64,000 nt of DNA from Pagrus major (lineage: Eukaryota; Chordata; Actinopteri; Spariformes; Sparidae). The translations under genes were made by a program, and so were the position numbers. Positions 37,937-63,064 of this stretch are shown piece after piece (the stretch's first letter is position 1; each line of letters starts with the position of its first letter). The notes under the pieces were generated by a model. The model saw nothing but the letters and a program-made list of their open reading frames with translations, ran no database searches and was not told the origin of the DNA. The stretch spans positions 28,633,551-28,697,550 of the forward strand of contig NC_133230.1 in the NCBI RefSeq assembly GCF_040436345.1, written 5' to 3'.

Positions 37937-40900
37937 TCAGGTCTCTGGATTCAGCTGCTCACGGAGCTCTGTGCTGTTGTCAGGAGCTGTAGGTCAGAAA
38001 CAAGCAACCCATATTGAACTTTTCTAAAGAATAAATACAGGAAACAGTCTTGAAAAGGTTAATCTGCACAATAATGTGAAACATTTTTTAATCTAAAACA
38101 TGAATTGTGAGTCAGATCAGCTGAAATAGAACCAAAGTAAGTTTTACTTACAAGATGGTGGGCTAACGGCTGAAACTAAAACAAAACACAAATAATTTCA
38201 GTCACAGTTGTAAATGCCAGATTATCTTTAGTCACTTTATTGCTCTCTTCTACCCACTCAAACTGAGTATCTGTTCATACTCATGCTTGTTTTAATTTTG
38301 CAACTTGAATTTTAAAAAAATCAACTCACTGACTGAAATCAAAGTACTGAAATCTTTCCTTTTTCTCACTCACCTTTCTTCTTTTTGGAAACGATGAATC
38401 CAGCAGCACCGATGAGAATGAGAGCAAGAACAACCACTGCAGCAGTGATGGGGACGGTCATGTCACTGGGCTTTACTGGTGAATAAAATACAATAAGACT
38501 GGTGCAGATGTAGCAAGTTAGAGCAAAGCAAAAATGTTTATTAAGTTAATTATTACTGTTTATTTCCAAGATTATTCCCATGCACTCCCCTTCAGCACCC
38601 TCTGATCCCACTCTTACCCCTATTGGACCTGATCCGATCTTTTTCCAATTTGGTGATGATGTCGTCCTCCACACCATAGAGCTGAAACACACAGTCGTAC
38701 CTCGTCCAGTCTTCTAGTGTGACTGATGAATGGATCAGGTGAACACTTATCTGGAAGGTTCCATCGTGGTTGGGGAGGATCTCTCCGTGGTCCACCTCCT
38801 CATGAAGCTCCTCTCCATCTTTCCTCCAGATGAGTGAGGCTCTGTGAGGGTAGAAACCTGTAGCGTGGCAGCTGACTGGAGAGGAGGGAGTCTTCTGGAG
38901 GAGAGACACTGAGGGAAGCTCTGGAGAGAGTTCAGTGAAACTATTTCCAGTTTGAAACACTGAGACAGCAAACTTACTTAACTCATGCTAAGTGTACACT
39001 GGCTATCACAGTCATGAGCAATAATGGAAAGAAATTTCAGAACAGCCAAAATGTCAGTGTGTACTGAATGGTCAGGACAACATTGAATCATTGAATCACT
39101 ACAGAAAATAAACAGAGAAAACAATGTAATGTCAGACTGACTGGAGTGATAACACAACAGCAGTTCAGTCTGAGCAGACTGTATGAACATGATTGTGTCC
39201 ATTAAACTACATCAGGTCATGTGATTCTACCTGTTCTCAGCAGAAAGCTCCTCCCATAGGCCAAATACGTCTTCAGCCACTGAGGGTAAATCACTGTGAG
39301 GTAATACTGATCAAATCTCATATTAGCTTTGTCAGCATCCCATCTCAGTTTGGTGATGAAAGCCTGTGGTTTTTGAGCGATCCATGTCATTGTCTTCATG
39401 TCAAATGAAATTAAGTCTTCTCCATCATAACCATACTGAATAAAACCAATAACCTCTCCAGTCTCATCATCCCACTCACAGCCACTCATCCTCTGTAAAA
39501 TGTGGACACCTGAGACAGAGACAGAGAAAGAAACACCTCACCTCATCACTTTAAGGTTTAAGATGCCAACAATGAACAGAGATGCAGCGTCTCTTGTTTG
39601 AGTCCAAACTATTATAACGGGGACTAACAAAAAAACAGTTTTCTCTAGTTTTGTAGTATAATAGTTATATTCTCTGTGTTAAAAAATGTCACGTTGAGTG
39701 TCAGTTCTGTGAGGCTTTGACTGGGTGAAGAGATTCACCTACATGTGTGCAGGGAAGGAGTTTAGTAAGGGGAGGACATATATGCTGGGTGTGTCCTGTA
39801 TGTTTCTCTGTGTGAGACCATGCTGCCACATGTTAGTTTGTTTGAAGTTATTTTGCCAATTTGTTCCTGATACGTTGTTGTTGTATCCTTTAAGTTATGT
39901 GTACATGCATCCAGATGACGTATTGTTTATATCTTTTAGGTTATGTTTAAATGGAACCAGTATTTATAATGTGTCACTGTCTTCCCACCAGACTGTGGTG
40001 TATTATTTGGAGTTGTTTGATTCCTACTTCCTCTCCTGTGAGAAGCTTAACCCTGTAAATATGACTCATGATGTATATTTAGATTTACAATCATTGTGTA
40101 TTGTTATTCTGTATTTACTTTTTGTTTTTAATAATAGAATCACAGTGAAGGATCACATAATATTTATCCTTCATGGATGCATTAATAATGTAAGCTAACT
40201 TTGTTCTCATGCACTTTTTGTGTTACTTAGTTTTGGCATGTATGCATTGCATATATATATTGATCTATATTTGCCGTTGTACAGAAATCTTCCATCTTGT
40301 CATTCATCCATCCATCTGATCAAGCATTCCCAACTCAATAAATGATCTAAAGGTTCTTGGATTCTCGTGTTTAAATGTGCACACTAATCAGATGTTCTGT
40401 GGTCCAGTCATCCCCTGAAACAGCTATTAGTCAATAAAGTATTCAGTCTTTTTAACTATGCATGATGAAAACTTTCTTTCAGCCCAGGGAGGCTGATGAA
40501 ATTAATTCCGAATATTTTTGATACAAATCTTTGTATGAGAAAAATTTTGTCTGATCAAAATTATTTTTATAATAATAAAGAACAGTTCATGAAATAAAAG
40601 GTGAAATATAACATAGTACATACTGTACCTCCACCCTGGTTGAAGCGCTGTTTCAAACTATTGATTTCGGCTCTAAAATGATTTGGCACTTGCTCAAAAC
40701 ATGCTCCTTTGTAGTCCTCCAAGTGGCGAGGATCATCATCGTATATTTTTTTCACCCAGTCGTGTTTTGGTTGGATTATCTTTTTGCTGCCGTCGCAGTA
40801 AAGCACTAGATTTTCATCAACCATTGCAGCTGCAAAAAACTCCGGGAAGTCTGGGAGTCCAGAGGATGCAGTGAAGATATACTTCAGGGAGTGTTTCTCT

Positions 40901-41979
40901 GCAGGACAGAAGAGGTTTATACATTCAGTATAAATACACACGTCATCATCACACTCATAAATATGATGTCATGGTAACACTTATGATTATGGCCTGCCAT
41001 CTACAGCATGATTCTTTTTATCTAACTTATCTATTACCCATTCTATCATTACAGGGTACAGCATGTGCAGGGCTAGCCCCTAAAACTTGGAGTAAGAAAT
41101 GTTGTTATTCTAAAGTTTTTGTTCGTCTTTGACAAGGTTAAATAATGTCCACAACCTATCCGTAGTTTGTGGTTTAAAATGTATATATGTTAAGGACGAA
41201 AATGAAAACACCCCCGCTTAGCAAATTGTATCATCCTCTTCTCACCGCTACTTCTCCTCTGTACCTGCACCACTCCGCAGCCCGACCGTCGTCCAGCGCG
41301 ACAAACACGCAGAGTGAGAATCCGTTTAGTTGTAGTGTTGTAAATCGACTAAGTAAGTTGCTCCAAAGCTGTGTCTCACACTTCTTTCCTTTTACCTAGA
41401 GTTGTTTCGATTCCGAGACCATACCGGTGTATCGGTGAGTACTGGAGTCCAGACACCGTTTATCAGTTAGCTCCGTTAGCGCCATTAGCGCGGCTACAGT
41501 ACTACTGGAGCTGTCCGTTTATTAAACAAAAACAGCAGCAATAAACTGCGTACCTGTGTCTCTGTTGTTGAAGTTTATCTTACTTTGAGACTCATTTTAA
41601 CAATCGGGTCAACAGTCATTTAAACATGACGTCACGCGCGTCTTTTCTGGTCAGTCGTCATGGAAACATGAAGCCCTGCCAGTGGTGCGGCGTTTGGACC
41701 AGAGTGAAAACAAACGTGTGTACGAGCTGAAAACCGAAACGACATATCACTGTATACCACCAGTATGTGTGAAAACACTCACTGTGGCTTTTTAAATGAA
41801 TTGTTATTTATTCCTAGATTTATATCTGTTATTTTTCAGTTGTGTCTGACTATCAAACTAGACAATAAAAGAAAGTTAAATGTTGTTCTTTTGCTGTATT
41901 CATTCATGTTTTACAGAGGATTTAACCTGAACCAGGCTTTGCAACATAATAATCACATCACTTTCATGCAGGTGTAGTA

Positions 41980-56512: not shown

Positions 56513-56537
56513 AGGGTTAGGGTTAGGGTTAGGGTTC
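56513..56537. repeat. Interstitial telomere-type repeat (TTAGGG)4
   Basis: Four consecutive TTAGGG-type units. It lies 110 bp past the MITE and is too short to be a chromosome end. Confidence 0.85.
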
Positions 56538-57572: not shown

Positions 57573-58608
57573 ATGATCTGCAGGATCCTGCTGCTCATCA
57601 GCCTCAACTGTGTCTGTGGTTAGTTTACAGCTTCACTTTATTTCACTGTGATTCCATGAATCAGTTAAAGTAGCCACATGTGAGCAAACAGTTGATGTTG
57701 ATGAGCCTCTGCAGCTCTGAGACGTCACTACACTGTCCACAGAAACGTGTAGATGGCTGCCAAGTTAAAGTTGTCAGTGTGTCTGCTCCTCACTTTCCCT
57801 CTCTGTCTCCTCAACAGGAACATTTGTAGTGAATGTGACACAGACCTCCTATCAGGCAGAGGAGAACCACAACATCACACTGGAATGGATGTTCACAACC
57901 ACAACTCACATTTCCCCCAACTCCATTTATATCTTCTGTGAGATGAAAACTGATCACAAAGTCTCAGTCCTGTTTGAACTACGTAGAGGTGTTGTGGTCC
58001 CAGAGTCTCGGGATCAACAGTTTGTAGGACGAGTCCAGTGGGAGAAGGATGTCCTCAGAGACGGACGAGTCAGACTTCATGTGTCCAGACTCAGGACTGA
58101 GGACTCAGGCCGGTACATGTGTGATGTGAGGACAAACTATGGTGTGGACTTTGGTGAATGTTGGCTCAAGGTCTCTGGTAAGTTGGTTGAGTAGAACTTT
58201 CAGTAGAACTTTATCAACAGGTTCAATTCAGCAGCTTTTTTGGATCAATAAGAACCTGAAGAAAAGTATTGAGGATGACCACAATCCACAATCCTTCACT
58301 TCATTCTCACAGTATCTCAGAAATATGTCACAACTTCAGCTGTTCTGTTGTGTGGTCTCTTTACAGCAGCGAGGGATTGGCCCGAACCTGAGAGACCCAA
58401 CACAGACACACCTGAGAGACCCAACACAGCAAGTCGAGGATGGATTGTCCTCTACTGTGGACTGGGACTGACAGCAGCAGTGGTTGTTGTGTGGTTTGCT
58501 CGCCATTTATTTATTCACTGTTTTGCTAAGAAACAAAAGCCCAGCAGAGGATTTAAGAAAAGTTCCAGCTCAGCAGGACCAGAGGAAACAATTTTATCAG
58601 CACTGTAA
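57573..58608 (+). CDS. Single V-set immunoglobulin membrane protein (copy A), unnamed fish family
   Basis: Type I membrane protein of 215 residues from three exons: 57573-57618 (signal peptide MICRILLLISLNCVCG), 57818-58177 (one Ig V-like domain) and 58367-58608 (stalk, TM, tail). A 5' UTR intron ends 7 bases before the ATG. The Ig domain has NITLEW (Trp39) on strand B, SIYIFC (Cys56) on strand C and the classic EDSGRYMC (Cys117) on strand F. The usual B-strand Cys and C-strand Trp are thus exchanged. Cys130 lies in strand G. NVT (21) and NIT (34) are N-glycosylation sites. The stalk repeats PERPNT twice. The TM is LGLTAAVVVVWFA. The tail is Ser/Lys-rich with no Tyr motif. I recognise the family from fish genomes but know no accepted name. 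B7-like ligand or decoy roles are guesses. Confidence 0.88.
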
Positions 58609-58797
58609 ATGAGGCCATTAAAACACATCATGCCTTCATATTGTTCAGCAAGTGTCCATGATATAAGAGTCAGAGGAGATAAACGATAATGGAGTTGATG
58701 GAGGAAACGTTGTTCTTCACCTTCAGATCTGAAAACTGCTCTGTGAGAAAACCTAGAATACCATGTATATGTTACAACTGTATATATGTTACATTTA

Positions 58798-59050
58798 TAC
58801 ACTGTCGGGCCAAAAAAACGTCACCACCTGGATTTAACTAAGCAAATAGGTCAGAGCCATTCATTGGATAATTACTGCAGTGATTATATGTTTCAGTAAG
58901 GAATTTTCTGTAAGAAAATAAACTTTGCATTTCAATTCATGATCTGACTGTCAGCTGACCACAGTAGAATGTGGGACACACAGAATGCACCTGACAGTCC
59001 CTATAAATAATCGCTTGCCACCCATCACATAAGCTTCCCATCACCCACTT
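58798..59050 (+). mobile_element. Terminal fragment of a Tc1/mariner-like transposon
   Basis: Begins 'cactgtcgggccaaaaaaac' then 'gtcaccacctggatttaact', which looks like the terminal inverted repeat and subterminal part of a fish mariner-type element. No transposase and no matching right end were found nearby. Confidence 0.45.
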
Positions 59051-60810
59051 AACCATAGCAATCGTCCTGTGTTGTCTTTGAGAGAATCAATAACATTTTT
59101 ATGCCCCATAAACACATTCAGATGTAACTTTATGTCCTGTAAACACATTTATCCAGTTTTCTGTGATTATTATAATTTTTGCCATCAGCAGCCTAACCTG
59201 TTGGCCAACACTGATCTGTGTTTATAATCAGTCAAGAAACCTCTGGACGTCCTTCCTGTATGTTGTTTATGCTAATTGTACTGTATATTGTCTAAATGGT
59301 AAAAGAGTTACTATTTTTGTAGTGTTATTTATTTACATGTGTTCCAAAAAAATCAATAAACAAGAGTCTTACCTAATTCAGTTGTTATTATTAGTGCATC
59401 ATGTAAAGTGTAAGAACTGTAATGGGTTGGTTGTTTATGCTGGAGGTGTAAAGGAAAGGCAATTATCATTTTCAAGACTTTATTCAAACAAGTTAGAGAT
59501 AATGCAAAACAAGGAGTAAATACAGAAGGACAAATAAACAGGTGTCAGGCAGAGTTCAGCTCCAACGTAGTCCTTGAATTCTGCCTGTAAAGCAACAGAA
59601 GAGCAACATAATTAGATATTTTTATGGAACAGAGCTTGACTATCCTCAGCATACTATGAACATATACACTTTCAATTGTGAATACTTTAGACATTCCTGG
59701 ACAAAACTGTACAGATGCCCCAGTTTATATTACATTTTTTTGAAGTACCAGCCCTTTATCTTTCTTTTCATTTTTCTACTTGCTGTGTTTATTGTTATGC
59801 ACCAAAACACAAATTCAAAATGTGAAAAACTACATGGCAAAAAATGTGATTCTGATTAGGGCACTTGTGTGTCCAAGTTACATGCCTGGTCAATATACTG
59901 TACAAACACAAGTAGTTTAGTTGTAGGTGGTGTTTATCAGAAAAAAAGTAATGTTCTCCTTTAGATGCTGACCTGCTCATGTGTAATCCTTTGAGCTTGA
60001 TGATCTACTCAACGTATGAACATATGCTCCTTGACCTGCTTTGCCATATCTAATGTTACCATAGATAGCTGCTGCTAGCTAACCAGCAATAAGTAACAAC
60101 TTCAAAATATACACTTTCGAAACAATTTCTGAATGCTAACAAAGCTAGCTTGACAGCTATCAGTGCTAGCAATGGCTATGTTGGTTGTTTACGTTCAATA
60201 TCATAATATGAGGTGTTTACTTACAGGTGAATGAGACATGAAGTAGTGACTTGTAGTTAGATGTTGTGATGTAAACGATGCACTGATACACCCTCCTTCC
60301 CACTGCTTGTGAGGACTCGGACTCCATTGGCGGGATTCAGCAGTTGTTGGACGGTGCACGTTCATGGTTTGGGGGGAGAGGCTTTAGAGAGAGGCCTGAG
60401 TGCAGGGTGCAGGGTTAACTGGCTGGATACTTCTTGAAATCTAGCCTGGACGGGTTTATGTCTTACAAACCGCAGCTTTAAGTTTCGGCCATCTCCACAA
60501 AGTTTTCGGGAATATAAGGGGAACTTGACCGGCCAGGAGACGGTTTTCACTTCTCCATGTTCTCGCCATTGTCTCCTGTCATATGTATTTGACCCAAAGC
60601 CAGCACTTGCGGTTTAGTCACTAATTGCCAACCATGAAACATCTGCGTGACTGTGAAACTGAGAAGTGCTATAAGTGCTGCCTAATATTTGGCACTTGAC
60701 ATTGGCACTTCCTCCTTTATTTGATCAAACACCCCAGTGCGCACATTCAGCCTATTTGTGAAACCACAGTTGTTTATGTTGTTTGCTTTCCAGTCAATTA
60801 GATGATTTTA
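59051..60810. other. Non-coding DNA between the two Ig-receptor genes
   Basis: An open frame at 59163-59519 has low-complexity hydrophobic content and no family resemblance. It may be old transposon debris. The GC-richer part at 60300-60600 looks like a dispersed repeat, but I cannot name it. Confidence 0.4.
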
Positions 60811-60814
60811 TTTG

Positions 60815-60995
60815 ACCTGTTAAATCAAAACCATGTTAATTTTTTACCACTATAACATCTGCTAAATTATCAAACAGGCCCAAATAGTTAAGAATATGTT
60901 GCAGAGCAAAACAAAGATTATACAGTTTCTCTTAACACTACAAGACTCAAAATTGTGTGTTTTTATAATGGAGTCTGCTAACCAGGAGAAGCAGC
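60815..60995. repeat. Segment repeated at the right edge (63.79-63.99 kb)
   Basis: Shares with the right edge the blocks 'taccactataa', 'caaatagtta', 'tatacagtttctc', 'caagactcaaaattg' and 'agaagcagc', in the same order. It lies 1.2 kb upstream of receptor copy B. The edge copy therefore probably precedes a third receptor gene. Confidence 0.7.
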
Positions 60996-62089
60996 TCATA
61001 TTAGTTTACTGTATTTGTAAAATGTGACATGTTTACGTCAATTTGTTTTATTCCTTTGTACATGTAGTGTAAATGTTGAGGTACAGCTGCTGGGAGGTAA
61101 GAAACTCTTCAGAAATGGAAGCAGACAGACTTTGACAGCGATGAGGCAACAAAGTGACACTTTTTACAAAGAAAGAAACATAATGATGTTATGATAATGA
61201 AAAAAGTTGGTGTGACCCTAAAGCACGACTCAACAGACAGGCAGGTCCAGTTAAAGATAAGTTTTAAGCCTAAACAGGCAGTGGTCAGTACCAGACTGAG
61301 AAGAGAACAATGAGCTGCAAACTGCAGCAAGACTCAGTTATAATTCAGCTCAGTCATCAGACAGAGAGGCATCCAGTTCACTGAAGACATCTTCTACAAC
61401 AATGACATGAAGCCTCAGGGACTTTTCATTGGTCACAACCAGCTCTGCTCCTCTGGATACAATTAAACATAAAGAAAATTTCAGATCGAACTTCTTTCCA
61501 TCAGGAGAAAAGTCGAGTGTTTCCCATCATGCACTGTGTTCTGTGGAGAGAAGAGAAACATCTGCAGCTGTCTATGATTTAATTCTGATGCTTCAAACAT
61601 CGATATATACGAGAGAAAGCTGGAAAGAAAACAACATAAACTGTGATTTCACAAATAGACTGAATGTGCGCAGGAAACTTAGATCAAAACACTATTTGAT
61701 CAGACTACACATTGCTGCACACCAACAATATGCAAGGTCAGCCTGATAAAGGGGAAGCATTGGTTGACTGTGGTTTGAAGTGTGGGAAGTACAAACCACT
61801 CAGGCGGGTTCCCAATGGACACAACCTCCATCACCTTACATCATCTCAGTAAAGTGATCAAGCAGTCTTAGCAAAACCCAGACAAGACGACTGAGAATGA
61901 CCGAAGACTTCAGAAGCTCCTCTCTGTAAGTAATCGTGTTTGTTGAAGTCAGATGAGTCAGTCAGCTGTATGAGGGACATTCTACCAGAAACATCATTTC
62001 CATTTGTTTAAATCTTGTGTGTGAGAAGATTTTATTGATGAAACTAAACAGAGTCAGTGTTGATATTTGTTTGTTGTGGTACATGAGCA

Positions 62090-62285
62090 GGATAATAAAG
62101 ACAAAAGGGGATTGTAAAGACTACAGACAGACTGTAGATGTTTGTTGTGGTACATGTGAGGACTGAACTGTGATCACATGACTCTTCACCTCTGTCTCCT
62201 CTCACAGGGAGAAGATGATCTGCAGGATCCTGCTGCTCATCAGCCTCAACTGTGTCTGTGGTTAGTTTACAGCTTCACTTTATTA
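62090..62285. repeat. Tandem-duplicated promoter/leader segment of the receptor genes
   Basis: Nearly identical to 57448-57643, including 'gactgtagatgtttg', 'gatcacatgactcttcacct', the splice acceptor, the whole signal-peptide exon and the start of intron 1. The two copies are 4.64 kb apart. Confidence 0.9.
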
Positions 62286-63064
62286 TCCATGAAGAGAAAA
62301 GCCGAAATGCACTTTCAGCCTCACTTACAGATTTTAGTAAGAATTCAATCTCTGTCTGCATTTGACCAAGCACATTTTAATCTCTGTTCTCTCTTTTCTA
62401 CTCTCAGGATTGGTTGAGCCTCGTTACACAGGTCCAGTCTATCGGGCAGAGGAAAACCACAACATCACAGTGGAGTGGCGCTTCTCGTCCGAATCCAACA
62501 TTTCTATCCCCTCACTGAAGATCCACTGTGTGTTCGTGGTGCCTGAGCTGAAGGTGTTTTATCACCTGGACAACAGTGTTGACGAGCCTCAGCATGAGCA
62601 GTTCACAGGACGGGTGCAGTGCGACAAAGACGCTCTCAGAACAGGACGGCTCAGACTTCATGTGTCCACAGTCAGGACTGAAGACTCGGGCCTGTACCTC
62701 TGTAGGATGGCCACTGAATCTGGCAGGAAGGTCACACAGTTCTCACTCAACATCGCTGGTAAGTCAAGATCGTCATGTCATGTGAAACAGTTTAAACACA
62801 TCTGGTCAGTTAAAACAAACGTAGACTCAAACTATCAGCTACGCTGATTTAAGTTTGTGTGAACAGATAACTCAAACACACACACTGTTATTGCTCTTTA
62901 CAGAAACCACCTTGACGCCCAAACCGGTGATACCAGAACCAAGACCAAAGCCAAAGCCAGAGAGTCGGGGCAGAATTGGCCTGTTTGTTGGACTGGGACT
63001 GGTAGCAGCAGCGGCAGCTGGACTGACTGTCAGTCACTGGACTTTATCATCTCGCTCTACCTAA
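62215..63064 (+). CDS. Single V-set immunoglobulin membrane protein (copy B), unnamed fish family
   Basis: Paralogue of the gene at 57.6 kb, 185 residues from three exons: 62215-62260 (the same MICRILLLISLNCVCG signal exon), 62408-62758 (V-like domain) and 62904-63064 (stalk, TM, tail). The domain shows YRAEENHNITVEW (Trp39), SLKIHC (Cys56), FTGRVQC (Cys87) and EDSGLYLC (Cys114). It repeats the Trp/Cys exchange of copy A and adds Cys87, where copy A has Trp90. NIT34 and NIS46 are N-glycosylation sites. The stalk is Pro/Lys-rich (PKPVIPEPRPKPKPE). The TM, IGLFVGLGLVAAAAAGLTV, has no charged residue. The cytoplasmic end is only about a dozen residues, with no signalling motif. It resembles a ligand or adhesion molecule more than a signalling receptor. 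Confidence 0.88.

Follow-up and report, generated by a model that had tools for sequence, protein, structure and literature searches.

Exchange of the strand-B cysteine and strand-C tryptophan in a family of single-V immunoglobulin-like proteins of Pagrus major

The textbook signature of the immunoglobulin (Ig) fold is a disulfide between strands B and F together with a packing tryptophan (Trp). In a stretch of 64,000 nucleotides from the fish Pagrus major (NCBI RefSeq assembly GCF_040436345.1, contig NC_133230.1, positions 28,633,551 to 28,697,550; hereafter the window, numbered from its first letter), two tandem genes encode V-set domains with a Trp at the strand-B cysteine (Cys) position and a Cys at the strand-C Trp position. 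This locus raises the questions of whether the exchange is real, whether it is maintained or a product of decay, and what would hold together a core built in this way.

Two tandem genes carry the exchange

Both genes lie on the + strand with their starts 4.6 kb apart, and follow a common plan of a leader exon, one V-set domain and an exon for stalk, membrane segment and tail, giving proteins of 215 (gene 1) and 185 (gene 2) residues. The interval 57818-62758 runs from the first base of the gene 1 V exon to the last base of the gene 2 V exon. The features are as follows (ITIM, immunoreceptor tyrosine-based inhibitory motif).

57573..57618, + strand: gene 1 exon 1, signal peptide MICRILLLISLNCVC(G), phase 1, from the spliced reading
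57818..58177, + strand: gene 1 exon 2, V-set domain, open frame with AG/GT borders, Pfam V-set 2.9e-7
57886..57888, + strand: gene 1 Trp39 codon TGG, strand-B Cys position
57937..57939, + strand: gene 1 Cys56 codon TGT, strand-C Trp position
58120..58122, + strand: gene 1 Cys117, strand F (EDSGRYMC), from the spliced reading
58159..58161, + strand: gene 1 Cys130, strand G
58367..58608, + strand: gene 1 exon 3, encoding a Pro-rich stalk built of NTDTPERP repeats, a membrane segment recognised by hydropathy and a tail of some 30-36 residues that lacks an ITIM
62215..62260, + strand: gene 2 exon 1, same signal peptide as gene 1, from the spliced reading
62408..62758, + strand: gene 2 exon 2, V-set domain
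62476..62478, + strand: gene 2 Trp39 codon TGG, strand-B Cys position
62527..62529, + strand: gene 2 Cys56 codon TGT, strand-C Trp position
62620..62622, + strand: gene 2 Cys87 (GRVQC), near strand D
62701..62703, + strand: gene 2 Cys114, strand F (EDSGLYLC), from the spliced reading
62904..63064, + strand: gene 2 exon 3, encoding a Pro-rich stalk, a membrane segment recognised by hydropathy and a tail of some 10 residues
57432..57642, + strand: leader region, DNA 95.8% identical to 62074-62284 over 212 columns

The introns after the V exons, 189 bases in gene 1 and 145 bases in gene 2, are too short for another Ig exon, and each protein therefore has a single Ig domain. The number of NTDTPERP repeats in the stalk varies between family copies.

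The spliced reading bears out the residue numbers given in the preliminary description of the locus (W39 and C56 in both genes, strand-F Cys 117 and 114). Residue 39 in strand B is Trp and residue 56 in strand C is Cys in both proteins, and the strand-F Cys is kept. Against the Pfam V-set cut-off of 26 bits, gene 1 scores 31.1 (E = 2.9e-7) and gene 2 falls slightly under it at 24.8 (E = 2.7e-5). The strands were placed by comparison with PD-L1, the best match of gene 2 in a phmmer search of PDB sequences (8.8e-9). The stretch NITVEW...SLKIHC of gene 2 aligns on NMTIEC...ALIVYW of PD-L1 (6nnv) with no gap between the sites, so that Trp39 is matched to the Cys of PD-L1 and Cys56 to its Trp, at the same spacing of 17 residues. 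Since the alignment is gap-free between them, the strand-B and strand-C sites map together and their placing is secure, as the preliminary description had it. Gene 1 matches pIgR (1.1e-5) about as well as PD-L1 (1.6e-5). In a search with a ten-row profile (nine family exons and a sister copy, L061, described below), pIgR and CD276 reached higher whole-chain scores through several weak domains, and PD-L1 was best with a single strong stretch.

Structure prediction, proposed earlier as a check, was run on both genes with AlphaFold (two jobs with two-row alignments of the window sequences). Mean predicted local distance difference test (pLDDT) scores were 56.3 and 48.3, both models are poor, and strand positions alone were used from them. 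The weak models have strands at 19-27, 37-44 and 99-105 for gene 1 and at 18-25, 37-43 and 95-98 for gene 2. A Foldseek search with the first model gave no match with E < 0.001; the folds listed were mixed, PD-1 and Fab chains standing beside enzymes, and nothing was drawn from them.

Could the exchange be an error of alignment, with Trp39 outside strand B and a normal Cys pair elsewhere? The divergence of fish V domains and the weakness of the models leave some room for this reading. It is nevertheless very hard to sustain given the gap-free PD-L1 alignment and its shared 17-residue spacing; neither protein has any Cys between the signal peptide and Cys56, and in both models, weak as they are, the Trp and the Cys of strands C and F all fall within strands. 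By these alignments, the exchange is confirmed in both window genes.

The exchange is shared by three divergent subgroups

We searched the 786 Mb genome from which the window comes. The best 150 candidates were scored per search, so that all family counts are lower bounds. At least 46 matches were found with V1, at least 36 with V2 and at least 150 with the V-set profile. The 46 V1 matches resolve into 33 distinct family exons, five C11 pieces, the rest of a broken exon (L025) and seven more distant matches. Entries L034-L060 and L070-L071 repeat places covered by L001-L030 and were left uncounted; L069 stands outside the 33 and was read separately as a decayed C11 fragment. Among viral contigs, nine pattern matches were found, none of them a relative.

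The 33 family exons are located on C22, C10, C4, C16 and C5, and a leader exon similar to that of gene 1 was found at 26 of these loci. All 33 have Trp in strand B and Cys in strand C, and the strand-F Cys is present in each of the 32 that reach strand F; the canonical V-set signature (Cys in B and F, Trp in C) is absent from the family exons. They fall into three divergent subgroups, about 44-50% alike, all with the exchange, and the strand-B Trp, strand-C Cys and strand-F Cys are the only Cys or Trp residues common to the three. The preliminary description had argued from two paralogues that the exchange is selected and not a decay product; the wider family supports that claim, and the sharing of the pattern was understated. 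In a tree of the family (L024 and L025 excluded), the 31 family tips form one clade with support 0.84, to which L061 is sister. Of 34 exons from the family and its sister copy, 28 have an NxT/S sequon directly before strand B.

The distance from the Trp to the Cys is 17 residues in 28 exons and 15 in the other five (L026-L030), one of which has a second Cys 24 residues after the Trp. By our reading of the alignment, the distance from the Cys to strand C' in L026-L030 equals that of the gene-2 group, which indicates a BC loop shorter by two residues with the Cys in the same place.

Constraint and decay

Alternatively, the exchange could reflect neutral decay, following duplication, of what had been an ordinary V domain. 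We compared 22 gene-1-like exons of full length, a set selected for being intact. In all 22 of them W23, C40, C101 and C114 (V-exon numbering) are invariant, with the codons TGG, TGT, TGT and TGT. The ratio of nonsynonymous to synonymous substitution rates (dN/dS; NG86 means of 231 pairwise comparisons that are not independent, given without a test of significance and possibly disturbed by gene conversion) is 0.66 at positions 1-28 (strands A-B) and 0.83 at positions 62-119. Over positions 29-61, from the BC loop to C'', it is 1.49, and 22 of the 33 sites there vary. C40 is thus a fixed Cys in the most variable part of the domain.

Decay would be compatible with an overall pairwise dN/dS of about 1 (median 0.99) and with the presence of broken copies (L024, L025 and L069). 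It would not readily explain why both residues are kept in all 33 exons of subgroups that are otherwise only about half alike, nor why dN/dS is reduced in strands A-B and exceeds 1 solely on the putative ligand face. Conversely, where decay has occurred, both sites are gone: three decayed fragments on C11 have CGG (Arg) for the Trp codon and AGC (Ser) at the Cys site, followed by stops. These fragments differ by 0-3 of 123 bases and thus record one decay event, not three controls. We set aside a neutral estimate of 7.5 stop-creating changes, an unfair test for 22 exons preselected as intact. Given the retention in the family and the loss of both sites in the single decayed lineage read, we reject decay, which we regard as most unlikely; that the exchange is shared and constrained within the family is supported by these comparisons.

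The leader peptides of genes 1 and 2 are identical and their leader regions nearly so at the DNA level, whereas the V domains have diverged to 50 identical residues of 113 aligned (44%). Near-identical leaders and flanks beside diverged V exons indicate gene conversion or exon exchange between copies, of which the homogeneity of the leader is a likely sign.

A sister copy and more distant relatives

The sister copy L061 (C10:7142743-7144087) shares the strand-B Trp and the strand-F Cys with the family but has Ile at the strand-C site. It also has two extra Cys (GRAWC and strand G), which correspond in position to the two additional Cys seen in the family. A search with L061 brought up no further copy like it that ranked above the family matches. 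L061 hints that the strand-B change may have come first; a loss of the strand-C Cys in L061 would be equally possible.

Eight distant relatives, L061 included, were read. Three of them (L065, L067 and L068) have the canonical C-W-C arrangement at 29-33% identity over the matched part. Relatives with canonical cysteines had been named beforehand as grounds for refutation; those found are distant and outgroup-like and do not contradict the exchange. In four others (L062, L063, L064 and L066) the strand-B site is Phe and the strand-C site Trp. They are located at C10:0.85-0.90 Mb, and three of the four have a Cys two residues past the strand-C Trp. This group is possibly a second, independent departure from the B-F bond.

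A putative intra-sheet disulfide in the core

How would such a domain be held together? In the GFCC' sheet, the anchor positions of the strand-C Trp and the strand-F Cys are described as part of a single run of backbone neighbours (PMC12051499), so that a Cys in place of the strand-C Trp adjoins the strand-F Cys. We hypothesize that Cys56 and the strand-F Cys form an intra-sheet C-F disulfide, as in domain 2 of CD4, while Trp39 from strand B would take the core space normally filled by the strand-C Trp. A bulky core residue would then be retained, but on the opposite sheet, and the two sheets would be joined by packing instead of an inter-sheet disulfide. The diversifying BC-C-C'-C'' face, lying directly above the C-F bond, could bind a cell-surface or pathogen ligand, to judge by the fold and the diversity. 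We consider it probable that this is an expanded fish family of type I membrane proteins with a single PD-L1/B7-like V domain, whose core has an intra-sheet C-F disulfide with Trp packing from strand B. Of the interpretation offered in the preliminary description, the exchange has proved real, shared and constrained, and the C-F disulfide with Trp packing is plausible.

Cys and Trp codons are one transversion apart, so that the exchange needs just two point changes. For a history in which a single exchange of the core residues, for which two transversions would suffice, became fixed and the B-F disulfide gave way to a C-F bond under a rapidly diversifying face, we see the chances as even.

The ectodomain Cys are residues 56, 117 and 130 in gene 1 and 56, 87 and 114 in gene 2, so that in each protein at least one is unpaired or used between chains. 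An alternative is therefore that Cys56 is free, or bonded between chains or to the extra Cys (130 or 87), leaving a core without a disulfide as in CD2. Besides the odd number of Cys in both ectodomains, the sister copy, with its strand-B Trp and strand-F Cys but no strand-C Cys, speaks for this view, and CD2 is a named exception to the B-F bond (PMC12051499). The extra Cys are, however, not common to the three subgroups, as Cys56 and the strand-F Cys are. Cys130 is kept in 22 of 22 intact gene-1-like exons and is absent from the gene-2-like and third subgroups; the site of Cys87 is W, C or L in 10, 8 and 4 of the 22 gene-1-like copies. The core Trp position also points inward, which would make a surface bond between chains unlikely. 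We regard a free or otherwise bonded Cys56 as unlikely.

Alternatively, the C-F bond might exist and be labile, working as an allosteric switch that opens by reduction at the cell surface in the manner described for CD4 domain 2. The predicted strand topology equals that of the CD4 cross-strand disulfide, for which reduction during T-cell signalling is described (PMC4354306). The invariance in 33 of 33 exons would suit a structural bond equally well, and the CD4 bond is present in some mammals and absent in others (PMC4354306). We regard such a switch as improbable, somewhat more so than a free or otherwise bonded Cys56.

Several observations weigh against a structural C-F bond with Trp packing in this family. 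In the five-exon subgroup the Cys stands 15 and not 17 residues after the Trp, so that the BC loop must have been shortened by two; MAFFT put this Cys two columns off, and L026-L030 are the weakest subgroup. The sister copy indicates that a strand-B Trp can exist without a C-F bond, and the extra Cys (130 in gene 1, 87 in gene 2) permit other pairings. Both AlphaFold models are poor and the Foldseek matches uninformative, and the C-F bond is inferred by sequence. The overall dN/dS near 1, the close kinship of the copies and the likely gene conversion weaken the argument from constraint, and the family was seen in a single genome.

A search of the tails of genes 1 and 2 found no ITIM, the sole match to the ITIM pattern in gene 1 falling within the membrane segment. 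This makes a role as ligand, as decoy or in dependence on a partner likelier than direct inhibitory signalling. The proteins are probably ligands, decoys or receptors that need a partner chain.

Relation to known systems

The V domains of PD-L1 (CD274) and its B7 relatives are the best solved relatives of gene 2 by sequence. PD-L1 shares with the fish family the spacing between the strand-B and strand-C sites and a sequon before strand B, there in its NMT stretch. In PD-L1 the Cys is in strand B and the Trp in strand C, whereas in the fish family these residues are exchanged and there is one domain only. PD-L1 has a second, C-type domain. We rejected the candidate of a PD-L1 orthologue with a two-domain ectodomain, as each window protein has one Ig domain and lacks the canonical core.

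CD4 domain 2 offers a precedent for the proposed bond. There Cys130 and Cys159 bridge strands C and F, the strand-B Cys having been lost beforehand; the bond is found in primates and muroid rodents and is described as having arisen on its own in mammals (PMC4354306). In the PDB sequence of this domain, SVQC occupies the strand-C Trp position and GTWTC falls in strand F, by our own placing of the strands. The fish family has the same pattern of Cys at the strand-C and strand-F anchors with none in strand B, and would share with CD4 domain 2 a disulfide within one sheet. CD4 domain 2 differs in being a C-type domain, in not belonging to a multigene family and, by our reading, in having Leu at the strand-B site where the fish family has Trp. 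In the CD4/LAG-3 family of other vertebrates, particular species are reported to have lost the B-F Cys pair or the strand-C Trp, and tetrapod LAG-3 bonds strand B to strand G; the accessible part of that study describes no Cys/Trp exchange (PMC10768021).

The NITR and NILT families, as far as the available descriptions go, are likewise fish multigene families of V-domain proteins. They are described with an ITIM or an immunoreceptor tyrosine-based activation motif (ITAM), whereas the window genes have no ITIM, and they are set apart here by description only. The preliminary description knew of no receptor class defined by such a swap. In the open-access literature, which mostly leaves out subscription papers and is here weak evidence of absence, we likewise found, among the titles and openings of abstracts listed, no multigene family defined by a full Cys-Trp exchange, although the C-F bond itself is precedented by CD4 domain 2. 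Similar uncharacterised predicted proteins are common in fish databases. The C-F bond and the loss of the canonical Cys and Trp are already known, and a family defined by the full exchange would be the new part.

Genomic neighbourhood

A gene of class I of the major histocompatibility complex (MHC) lies about 17 kb from gene 1.

38592-38987 and 40567-40968, - strand: exons of the MHC class I gene (C1-set 5.9e-10; MHC_I 1.4e-4, below cut-off)

Across the genome, 56 matches to the alpha-3 exon were found, on C16, C3, C19, C14, C21, C1 and C5. At 67% identity or more there are 54, including that of the window, many of them at C3:3.15-3.48 Mb and C16:9.97-10.37 Mb. A linkage of the family to MHC class I was considered and rejected: no alpha-3 match lies on C22, C10 or C4, which carry other family clusters, or on C11, and the match on C5 is about 14 Mb from the family copy. 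Elsewhere in the window, Pfam matches within 2320-29201 include ankyrin repeats (5.4 kb), a proteasome subunit (10.5 kb) and a pentatricopeptide repeat (PPR) protein (22 kb). A stretch at 28.9 kb without a Pfam match resembles PPP2R3C, and we take the order at 2320-29201 to resemble the human NFKBIA-PSMA6-PRORP-PPP2R3C block. Short interstitial telomere-like GGGTTA repeats occur from window position 56514.

Significance

Since CD4 domain 2 already has a C-F bond, the surprise of such a bond in itself is limited. Annotation could gain from the family, gene 2 scoring marginally below the V-set cut-off. If the proposed core is correct, the family would be a natural test of the roles of the disulfide and the Trp in stability, flexibility and redox control. 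A large immune family that is diversifying, with its fold intact after the exchange, would then show how the Ig core can be re-wired in nature, with a possible surviving intermediate (Trp in strand B, no Cys in strand C) in the same genome.

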